From NCBI GenBank assembly GCA_910890315.1, contig CAJVGD010000046.1, positions 1 through 64,000 of the forward strand: a stretch of 64,000 bases of DNA. Reading direction: 5' to 3'. Both the position numbers and the translations under genes were made by a program. Shown here in pieces: positions 10,401 through 44,508 of the stretch. The notes beneath the pieces were generated by a model, which was not told the origin of the DNA, ran no database searches, and saw only the letters and a list, made by a program, of their open reading frames with translations. This DNA is from Serendipita indica DSM 11827 (Eukaryota; Basidiomycota; Agaricomycetes; Sebacinales; Serendipitaceae). The stretch's first letter is position 1. Each line of letters opens with the position of its first letter.

Positions 10401-11155
10401 TGAGGAAAGCCTGAGAGTCTGCGGGCATTGTGTTGTGTACGGTACGTTGCTTGACAAAAGGTTAGCCTGGGATCTCGTTGATTGCCAGTAGACGTACCGG
10501 AGGCCCCTCTGGACGCCAAATCCCTCGACCGGCTTGCTTCGCCTCATTTTCAAGCTCTTTCTTCCTCAAGTCTTCTTCGGTAGGTTCTCGCTTCGAGCCC
10601 TCTTTGGTACGCGCCCATCCACTCGCGAGCAAATCCTTTGCAAGATCACCATTGAAGTCGACATTGCCAAAGTCGCGTTGAACGTCTGGATCCGTGTTGG
10701 ATGGGGGCAACGAGTGTGTTGGTGTAAAGGTGATTTCCTTTCCAACCAGTAGCTTTCGCAAGTTTTCACGACAGTCGTACGCCCATGGCTAGTGACATTG
10801 TGATGAGTGTCTGTTCGCTCTGGCACGTCGATTGCACAAACCTCGTCTTCACGCGTCGAACTTCCCATTCGTGGCGCGGATATATCTGCGATATGGAGGA
10901 TGCTGACAGACGAGACGTTAGCCACTGTCGAAGGCGCGAAACGAGGTGAGCTTGCCGTTCTTTTGGCGGTTGACCAGGTCCTGTAGCTCTGTTTCTGAGT
11001 ACGAGAGTGTCTCCCGACGTGACGGCTTGTTCTCGTCAATGTGTGCCCGCACGAGATGGGAGAGGACGAACATTTTACAATCTACCGACGCAAGGACGAC
11101 GTGAGCGAGTGTTGAACGAGTATTTTAATTGACATACTGCTTTGAGACTGGTCAT
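7416..11155 (-). CDS. SND1: Tudor staphylococcal nuclease (Tudor-SN / SND1 homologue)
   Basis: A multi-domain RNA-binding protein with tandem staphylococcal-nuclease folds and one Tudor domain, known from RNA decay, splicing and stress granules. The N-terminus splices to [20 protein letters not shown], then GPGQPPKER and [12 protein letters not shown], the standard start of the family. Further SN repeats are visible: [57 protein letters not shown]. The Tudor core is [20 protein letters not shown] with [15 protein letters not shown], and the C-terminal SN part runs from [16 protein letters not shown] to the acidic end. There are at least a dozen short introns. The second intron has a clear GT..AAG reading, and the third (10955-10903) uses a GC-AG border. 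The start at 11155 is fixed by the MTSLKAIVK junction. Confidence 0.93.
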
Positions 11156-33755: not shown

Positions 33756-35096
33756 ATGAGCACCTATCAAGCTACGGTATCTGCGCCAGTGAACATTGCC
33801 TGCATCAAGTGAGCTTTTGATCAATACCCGCCTTGGCTTTGGACTGATCGCCTTTCGTTAGGTACTGGGGCAAGAGAGATACAAAGCTGATCTTGCCGAC
33901 AAATTCGTCGCTCTCTGTCACGCTTGACCAGGATCATTTACGGTCGACAACGTCGGCACGGTGTGATCCGGGATTCGAAAAGGATGCACTCTGGCTGAAC
34001 GGCAAGGAAGACGAGATCAAACCCGGTGGACGTCTTGCTACGTGCATCACAGAGATGAAGAAGCTGCGAAAGGAATACGAGGACCAGAATCCGAATGAAC
34101 CCAAGGTCCGTTCCCCCCTTGCGTCTGTTGGATTCCACGAAACTGATGAGATTCAGATCTCTGGGTACAATGTGCGAATTGCATCAGAGAACAACTTTCC
34201 TACAGCGGCGGGACTAGCATCGTCTGCATCTGGCTTTGCCGCACTCGTCTACGCGCTAGCTACGCTCTACAAGCTCCCGTCATCGCCCAGCCAGTTGTCT
34301 CTGATCGCGCGACAAGGCTCTGGGTCTGCATGCCGCTCACTCTTTGGCGGGTTTGTTGCATGGGAGATGGGCACCTCTGTCACTGGAACCGACTCGTTTG
34401 CGGTCCAAGTCGCACCAGCCGAGCACTGGAGCGACATGCACGCGCTTATTTGTGTCGTCTCTGATGCTAAAAAAGGTACATCGTCCACCTCGGGCATGCA
34501 ACGTACCGTCGAAACGTCAGAGTTACTGCAGTGGAGGATTAAAGAGGTGGTGCCAAAGAGGATGAAGGAGATGCAAAAGGCAATCTTGGACAAGGATTTC
34601 GATACATTTGCGACGATTACGATGCGCGATTCGAATCAGTTTCACGCCGTCGCACTCGACACGGACCCACCCATCTTTTATGAACGATACGAGCCGGGCT
34701 ATCGTGGCCATGGTTACAGAACTCAACCGCGTGAGTGTAGAGAATGGAGGTGGACTCAAGGCGGCGTACACATACGACGCAGGACCCAACGCGGTGATCT
34801 ATGCAAGAGAAAAGGACATGAAGGAGATTGTGAACATGGTGTGTCACTACTTCCCGCTCCTCGCATCCACACAACCCTACGAGGACCGGTTCAAGCTGTT
34901 TAGCGCTGGGGAAAAGGTCGGAGAGATGCCGCTGCCGGCCGGGTTTAACGAGGGTGTAGCCAAGGTGGCAAATGATGCCGCGAGCTCAGTGAGTCGGTTG
35001 ATTCACACACGCGTGGGTGGCGGGCCGCGAGTCCTGGACGATTCAAAGGAGGGGCTGTTAGATGCGCAGGGGGTCCCACGCAAGTTGGTCGCATAA
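33756..35096 (+). CDS. ERG19: Mevalonate diphosphate decarboxylase, with an apparent frameshift
   Basis: The GHMP-family enzyme that converts mevalonate 5-diphosphate to isopentenyl diphosphate in the sterol pathway. Exon 1 encodes MSTYQATVSAPVNIACIK and splices to YWGKRDTKLILPTNSSLSVT. A 45-nt intron (34106-34150, GTCCGT donor) probably precedes IQISGYNVRIASENNFPTAA. GLASSASGFAALVYAL is the ATP-binding GHMP loop. The C-terminal half, AAYTYDAGPNAVIYA to PRKLVA, is also standard. Between DPPIFY and MNDTSRAI the reading frame changes (34676-34682): the two codon sets overlap by two bases with no room for an intron. This is equivalent to a two-base loss, for example TATATG read as TATG. As given, the frame would run out of family sequence and lose the last third of the enzyme. 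Sequencing error, a null allele or recoding are all possible. Confidence 0.92.
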
Positions 35097-42462: not shown

Positions 42463-44508
42463 ATGAAGGGGCTATTCAGGCGAAAGGGGAGCCAAGGTGC
42501 TTCTCATCTGCACGATTCGTCACCAAGTACTCGGTCCAGTCTTCTCGAACCGTCGACAGTGGGTGGCGAGCCCTCGACGGACGTTGACGGGGAAAGTCCG
42601 AGTCTGATTACATCTAATATTGACACGGAGATACTTCCAAACTCTGTCGATACATACCACGCCATCACTGAGTGGCTCGAACATGGATCTACACCAGTTC
42701 CTGACATATCGGAAGCAACACCAGATCTTGTACCCCTCAAGTCTGCCTCTTCATCTTTGATTTGTGCGATAGAAATCTTGATGGTACCTATGAACCCAAT
42801 GGCTGCTTATTTGACGATTGCTTTCAGGATGTTCACAATGACGACGTTGCCTGGAATGAAATGTGCAACGATATACATTCTCATGCGAAGCAAATTCAGA
42901 GCAACTTTGAGAGATTAGATAAGAAAGGTGTAACCAACCCTGGCGACATTAGGCTCATACGTGCTATGGACGAGTATCTTGGGTAAGATTTAACGGGAAC
43001 ACCAGAAATTGATGCTTAATATAAACTAAGCGTTCTCAATACTATTGGAAAAGCGGCGCAAATAGGAATGAGAGAGGCTAGAGATCGCTCAGGAGTCAGC
43101 GCCTCACGGTTTGGGACGACCAAAATCGACAACGAACACATAAAGCACTTAATACAAGCGGAAAGAGAATCATATCAGATATATCAGGTTCGAACACGCT
43201 AATCATCAGGTTTCGCTCATGCCCACCAGGTCGCCGTCGATCAACTTCTCCTAAACCGTGTCACGCAGGTTGATGTGCTCGTAGAAGAGCTAAGAGAAGA
43301 TGTACAAGCGACGAATGCTCTCGGTACCAATGGTACGTCTGGTCATTTGACTTCTCCCATCACTCATTTCGTGCAGACGGAATCCCTGATTTCACACTTC
43401 GCCTCTCGTACGGAACCGACCTCGAGATCTGCGAGCCTGGAGCGTGCGTTGAAATCTTGACGAGAATCCGCGACTGGGCAGGCGACACGAACCGCTCGCA
43501 GCAAATCTTCTGGTTGAATGATGCTGCGGGCACGGGGAAGTCGACAGTAGCCACGACGATAGCCAGAGAGTGGCAAGATCAGGGTCGGCTTGGTGGACGA
43601 TTCTTCTTCAATCCCAAGGTCGCATTGGACCAAGATATTCGTCACTTCTGCCGTATGGTGGCATACGATATAGTATCCAACCATCCACAACTTGCTACAT
43701 CCATCAACTCGATTCTGATCGCAAGCCTAGAAGATACGATGGACTTCGCCATGCAGTTCATCCGACTCATTCTGGATCCACTTCGAAGCCTGAGCGCCAC
43801 GACGGGGATATTCCTCGTCATCGATGCTCTGGACAATTGCGAATTCAAATCGATACAACGACTGCTCAATGTCATAATCAAAGAGCTCCCGAACGCACCA
43901 AGGATCAGGCTCCTGCTCACTAGCCGACCAATGCCAGGCATCAGCGATCGCCTCAGCGACCCCGGGTATATCAAATGAGTCCCAAAGTCATGGTACTTCA
44001 CAACCGCATACCAAGAGTACATCGCATGGCCTTTTCACCCGACTCACGCAATTTTGCGATGCTTCGGACCACCTCTGGCGGGCCGCTCGTTCAAGCATGG
44101 GATCTCAGTAGTTCCGGAGGGAAGCTAGTGGGAGAGGCAGAAAGCGACGACGAAGGATTAATGATGACAAACTATAATCTCGGATTCTTGGCGGACGGAA
44201 ACCTGATTGCGCACGGGTCGACCATCTGGGAGCTGCACTCAAACGGCCTCAAAAGATTCCAGAGCTCGAAAATACCAGAGTCTCTCCGAACCTATCCTCA
44301 CTCTTTTCTTACCTACGTAGACGGGTGGGTCCACTCTGCATTTCCACCAGGACCAATCGTACCAATTCCAACCCATCTAAGACTACTCTTCACCACGGGT
44401 GCCTTTTACGAAAGTCAACTGTGCTCTGCAAGTGGCAATACCATACTCGGGTGGACCAAGATGTTTGAGCCTCTCATATTTGATTTCTCGGCCTTTGTGG
44501 CGTGTTGA
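42463..44508 (+). pseudogene. NACHT-WD40 NLR gene lacking its central part
   Basis: A fungal NOD-like receptor of the kind used in non-self recognition. It starts MKGLFRRKGSQGASHLHDSS. Helical N-terminal segments follow (AWNEMCNDIHSHAKQIQSNF, then KIDNEHIKHLIQAERESY, VDVLVEELREDVQ). The NACHT domain has Walker A NDAAGTGKSTVATTIA, Walker B GIFLVIDALDN, and a sensor-like RIRLLLTSRP. Right after SDRLSDPGYIK the frame stops (43976-43978). An overlapping frame starts directly with what looks like the last WD40 part: VHRMAFSPDSRNFAML, VQAWDLSSSGG, ending at 44508. Family members normally have several hundred residues of helices plus many WD40 blades between these points. So the middle appears deleted and the gene is probably dead or a NACHT-only remnant. 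The exon join near 42740-42780 is also unresolved. Confidence 0.7.

Follow-up and report, generated by a model that had tools for sequence, protein, structure and literature searches.

A frame break in the ERG19 gene of Serendipita indica, probably a residual error of two missing nucleotides in the assembly

Introduction

How can a gene whose product is required for viability in yeast (PMC6532591, citing Berges 1997) be interrupted in mid-frame in the only copy that a fungal genome assembly appears to hold? This question is raised by ERG19, the mevalonate diphosphate decarboxylase gene, in the window analysed here, which comprises the first 64 kb (64,000 nucleotides) of contig C44 (1,337,872 bp) in a 24,708,602-bp assembly of Serendipita indica with 55 contigs, and which contains 23 gene models. 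An earlier sequence-only reading had called the gene essential in the fungi studied so far and had offered three choices: an assembly error, a null allele in a multinucleate strain with another functional copy, or translational recoding. ERG19 does not appear in the available portion of PMC7893156.

Two aspects of the background are relevant to these choices. S. indica has been described as most probably heterokaryotic, at 2.6 SNPs per kb (PMC3192844). In addition, a resequencing study reported an assembly of 57 contigs and 24.7 Mb (N50 1.3 Mb, GC 50.8%), produced with Canu from 324 Mb of MinION R9.5 reads, about 13-fold for 24.7 Mb, and polished in 8 Pilon rounds with 5.46 Gb of MiSeq reads (PMC8385953). 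The present assembly is likely this published MinION/Canu/Pilon assembly, to judge from the agreement in size, the nearly equal number of contigs and the length of C44, which fits the reported N50. PDB entry 7sp5, which we take to be PiPT, the phosphate transporter of Piriformospora (Serendipita) indica, is identical to a gene model on contig C16 over 522 of 522 residues.

Identity and layout of the gene

In a Pfam profile search, frame 2 of the locus matched PF22700 at 1.4e-58 and PF18376 at 5.4e-39, and frame 3 matched PF18376 at 8.3e-25. Both the MVD-like N-terminal domain and the MDD C-terminal domain are present in one gene, as in known mevalonate diphosphate decarboxylases (ERG19/MVD1; PF22700 + PF18376; PDB 6xr5, 1fi4). 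The locus differs from this family in that its frame is interrupted once, where it is 2 nt short between PPIFY and MNDTS; as assembled, it gives no single continuous frame after splicing, a failure that we attribute to the assembly. The second ERG19 copy for which a search had been suggested was not found in the assembly by DNA, protein or Pfam search. The features of the locus are listed in Table 1.

Table 1. Features of the ERG19 locus, with positions in the window
Feature	Position	Strand	Basis
ERG19 exon 1, ATG 33756, MSTYQATVSAPVNIACIK	33756..33808	+	Gene model, sequence
Intron 1, GTGAGC...TTAG, 53 nt	33809..33861	+	Gene model
ERG19 exon 2, frame 2	33862..34105	+	Open frame, Pfam and PDB alignment
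Likely intron 2, 51 nt, GTCCGT...CAG, without in-frame stops	34106..34156	+	Inference from 6xr5 alignment
ERG19 exon 3, frame-2 part, ending ...DPPIFY	34157..34681	+	PF18376 positions 1-80 at 34442-34681
ERG19 exon 3, frame-3 part, MNDTSRAI... to stop	34680..35096	+	PF18376 positions 79-186 at 34674-35036; PDB alignment
Frame break, TAT 34679-34681 (frame 2) / ATG 34680-34682 (frame 3)	34679..34682	+	PDB, Pfam, sequence
Intron-like stretch bridging frame 2 to frame 3, frame 3 = VSVENGGGLKAAYTYDAG; judged false	34731..34782	+	Intron scoring
Open frame-2 continuation, 73 residues without match, then stop	34682..34903	+	Pfam and PDB searches

Because the 17 residues that frame 2 encodes at 34106-34156 are absent from 6xr5, this stretch is regarded as a likely intron inside the frame-2 open reading frame. 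Our own gene finder made no call of it, and such a stop-free stretch is easily mistaken for coding sequence.

The frame break

The sequence around the break, CCCATCTTTTATGAACG, begins at 34670. Frame 2 is open at 33848-34903 and carries the N domain together with MDD_C profile positions 1-80, while frame 3, open at 34566-35096, carries profile positions 79-186; the frame-2 TAT and the frame-3 ATG at 34679-34682 share two bases. When aligned with 6xr5, a PDB entry deposited as diphosphomevalonate decarboxylase and presumably derived from Cryptococcus, the frame-2 piece corresponds to residues 24-281 of 403 and ends on Tyr 281, and the frame-3 piece corresponds to residues 280-402 of 403, with its Met on 282. 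The earlier placement of DPPIFY in frame 2 and of MNDTSRAI in frame 3, with a two-base overlap, is thereby confirmed by Pfam, the 6xr5 alignment and the sequence itself.

Since the two pieces abut on 6xr5 with no residue missing, the DNA appears to be 2 nt short, in a non-homopolymer context. The break could alternatively be read as 1 nt extra if the conserved Tyr were dispensable; this Tyr is kept in the four relatives aligned, which makes two missing nucleotides the likelier reading.

Splicing across the break

The earlier claim that no intron can fit holds at the join itself: none of 275 GT-AG pairs (30-200 nt, 34421-34950) joins DPPIFY to NDTSRAI within 5 residues, in a test that recovered the ordinary 47-nt intron of V-ATPase A as a positive control. 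The claim does not hold if conserved residues may be lost, as 81 GT-AG pairs (35-200 nt, starts 34500-34900) have a length that would shift the reading from frame 2 into frame 3. Among these, 34731-34782 (GTGAGT...GCAG, 52 nt) scores best; it has a perfect donor and an intron score of -0.9, above the median of -2.0 for 171 model introns, and our own gene finding without frameshifts selects it. In 100 simulated breaks, no patching intron reached this score. That so consensus-like an intron bridges the two frames is an unusual coincidence, and it counts against an assembly error.

These properties would favour a real intron that restores the frame in the mRNA, so that a shorter protein is encoded. 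Its removal, however, would replace MNDTSRAI...AYTYDAG with 17 unrelated residues, at the cost of an Asp that we presume to be catalytic, and no other ERG19 copy was found in the assembly. The stretch is rejected as an explanation because AYTYDAG is matched in frame 3 by solved relatives and only unrelated residues would be left in its place; a real intron here is considered highly improbable.

Similar breaks in conserved genes

Conserved genes elsewhere in the assembly were sampled as own-genome matches of PF00118, PF00012, PF00133 and PF00006. Of the 28 loci touched, 24 were counted, with about 51.4 kb of model coding sequence (an approximate figure, as some models run into neighbour genes). 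Those left out were C14:823857 (PF00118), HSP70-like fragments on C11 and C36, and C1:1998974-2003205, for which there was no usable model. Gene names rest on PDB matches for HSP60, SSE, CCT4 and V-ATPase B, and on inspection by eye for the rest; ATP synthase alpha (C14), one of the 24, was modelled on the wrong strand and judged by eye. At the scan penalty used, 52 of 60 simulated breaks were detected.

Clear frame breaks were found in two of the 24 genes. HSP60 aligns to 9k47, and SSE/HSP110 to yeast SSE1 (3c7n), free of gaps across the break, and the join is restored by none of 281 GT-AG pairs in the former and none of 242 in the latter. Two further genes, CCT4 and V-ATPase B, are graded probable rather than clear, since in each of them the frames could be connected by a weak GT-AG pair. 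In CCT4, the break lies in a variable insertion absent from 6nr8, with conserved flanks on both sides, and the frames can be joined by one weak 35-nt pair, below the 38-nt intron minimum of our finder. In V-ATPase B, removal of the consensus intron yields the conserved GYPGYMYTDL (GYP-GYMYTDL) with 1 nt missing, and a weak alternative donor would yield GYPVSYMYTDL, with VS replacing the conserved G. By our reading each of these four genes is 1 nt short, as against 2 nt in ERG19, and in HSP60 and SSE the shift runs in the direction opposite to that in ERG19. No motif common to the breaks was seen.

In the other 20 of the 24 genes, no break survived inspection by eye, although some may have been missed. 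Candidates at CCT3 (two), CCT7, CSN5 (two, in a neighbour gene), V-ATPase A and a KAR2-like gene (two) were read as ordinary introns. When stops and frameshifts were given equal penalties, the 24 top models contained one premature stop, which lay on the wrong-strand model. These counts, from 2 clear to 4 when the probable ones are included, in 51 kb of conserved coding sequence, correspond to one break per 13 to 26 kb, a rate at which one broken gene among the 23 models of the window is unremarkable.

Several side observations were made during the survey. In the HSP70-like fragments C36:45678-46258 and C11:229060-229516, the frame differs from one match to the next, and the gaps between matches leave hardly any space, or none, for an intron, as read from the match table. 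The PF00006 search matched ATP synthase alpha and V-ATPase A and B only, with no match to ATP synthase beta (ATP2), and a genome search with a conserved stretch of ATP2 gave V-ATPase A as its sole match; the ATP2 gene may be missing from the assembly.

Frameshift scan of the contig

An ab initio scan of C44:1-101500 was carried out with our own gene finder allowing frameshifts, an approach of low power: simulated two-base deletions were found in 52 of 60 cases at a penalty of -6, in 42 of 60 at -8 and in 28 of 60 at -10. At penalties of -10 to -22, no frameshift was called in this region, at ERG19 or elsewhere, because false introns patch most breaks (86 of 100 simulated ones, or 81 of 100 by another count). 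At -6, 12 candidates were obtained. Those at 77351 and 18897 were identified as introns on reading the DNA, which also placed the one at 10930 near a gene start, and for five others (46143, 57173, 63342, 70664 and 79267), which were left uncounted, the model protein was the sole basis of judgement. Breaks at 75290, 84365 and 100136, in WD/NACHT (NWD) genes, looked real when compared by eye with paralogues, which brings the real-looking breaks in the region to four, ERG19 included. The one at 84365 runs in the direction of ERG19, and those at 75290 and 100136 in that of HSP60, SSE, CCT4 and V-ATPase B; all three may be pseudogenes or assembly indels. The family is represented by 99 NACHT-WD ORFs reported in S. 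indica (PMC3192844), in line with those on C44. One further model in the window (43068-44507) consists of a short NACHT model with WD-type C-terminal sequence and without most of the middle part of its paralogues, and is possibly a truncated family member.

Translational recoding

The ribosome could in principle leave frame 2 at UUUUAUG and enter frame 3, either by a +1 shift with the Tyr lost or by a -2 shift with the Tyr kept. Both frames are open and conserved, each on its own side, and the Phe tRNA could, on direct reading, pair again in +1 at UUU.U. Programmed +1 frameshifting is known in the antizyme gene OAZ1 and in ABP140 and EST3, where, as here, two overlapping open frames together make one protein. 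The ERG19 site differs from these systems in lacking a stop, a rare codon or an unusual structure. It consists of the sense codons TAT GAA, and TAT is not rare in the C44 models (299 TAT vs 293 TAC). The downstream RNA (34684-34803) folds in an ordinary manner (z = 0.20; 119 of 200 shuffles fold as well) by a z-score test that leaves pseudoknots aside. Moreover, HSP60 and SSE, the two clear cases, are shifted in the opposite direction, and no slip motif common to them and ERG19 was seen. Recoding, the third of the choices offered earlier, thus finds no support, and we consider it extremely improbable. A scan of viral contigs confirmed no relatives.

Assembly error or sheltered null allele

For a single-copy gene without which yeast is not viable, null alleles in both nuclei of a living fungus are scarcely conceivable, which leaves either a wrong consensus or one nucleus with a broken allele; the same applies to HSP60, which is essential in yeast. 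According to the second of these possibilities, a null ERG19 allele is real in one of two nuclear genomes, and a collapsed assembly displays the broken copy while the other nucleus carries an intact one. The reported heterokaryon would accommodate such an allele, and with only one copy found, a second allele, if any, would be invisible. Illumina polishing, as reported for the published assembly (PMC8385953), should also keep allelic differences and remove errors. On the other hand, the two clear and two probable breaks among the 24 conserved genes would require sheltered nulls as well, and mutation would be expected to produce stops too, of which the wrong-strand model supplied the only one in the 24, an argument weakened by the fact that a false intron can conceal a stop just as it can a frameshift. 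The earlier suggestion of a multinucleate strain with a null allele gains from the reported heterokaryon but is less likely as a general cause of the breaks; for ERG19, it is considered unlikely. That ERG19, HSP60, SSE/HSP110 and probably also CCT4 and V-ATPase B all carry real recessive null alleles, split between two nuclei so that neither genome is viable alone, appears quite improbable.

The explanation that fits best, judging from the sequence, is an assembly error. The locus is most probably an ordinary single-copy mevalonate diphosphate decarboxylase gene, and its break a residual consensus error in which two nucleotides were dropped. Both halves of ERG19 are conserved in the family and abut exactly, with no GT-AG join, and the MinION coverage of the published assembly was about 13-fold (PMC8385953). 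That indispensable genes are broken, and at sites with no motif in common, suggests indels left over in the assembly, and the three clear small indels (ERG19, HSP60 and SSE), the two probable ones and the single wrong-strand stop fit consensus error better than real alleles. The occurrence of similar breaks in unrelated housekeeping genes is what is seen with the residual indels of long-read assemblies, where short indels likewise break frames in conserved genes, and it lends support to the assembly error named among the three earlier choices. At least one nucleus of the organism would then carry an uninterrupted ERG19, and the slip would have arisen in base calling or consensus building.

Several observations count against a plain error. 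The main one is that the reported Pilon polishing (PMC8385953) would be expected to clear most indels of this kind from unique sequence; Illumina polishing of the likely source assembly and the 2-nt length of the ERG19 slip are also the points in which this case differs from ordinary residual long-read indels. Furthermore, the ERG19 break, which is not in a homopolymer, is unlike the one-nucleotide breaks of the control genes, most of the sampled genes (20 of 24) show no surviving break, and the well-scoring pseudo-intron adds its coincidence.

Implications

Automatic annotation may choose the intron-like stretch at 34731-34782, which would produce a complete-looking enzyme without the conserved AYTYDAG and hide the break. 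Anyone who works with this assembly needs support from reads before accepting gene losses, pseudogenes or odd introns deduced from it. If the alleles were real after all, a heterokaryon with complementary lethal alleles would represent a striking case of nuclear interdependence.
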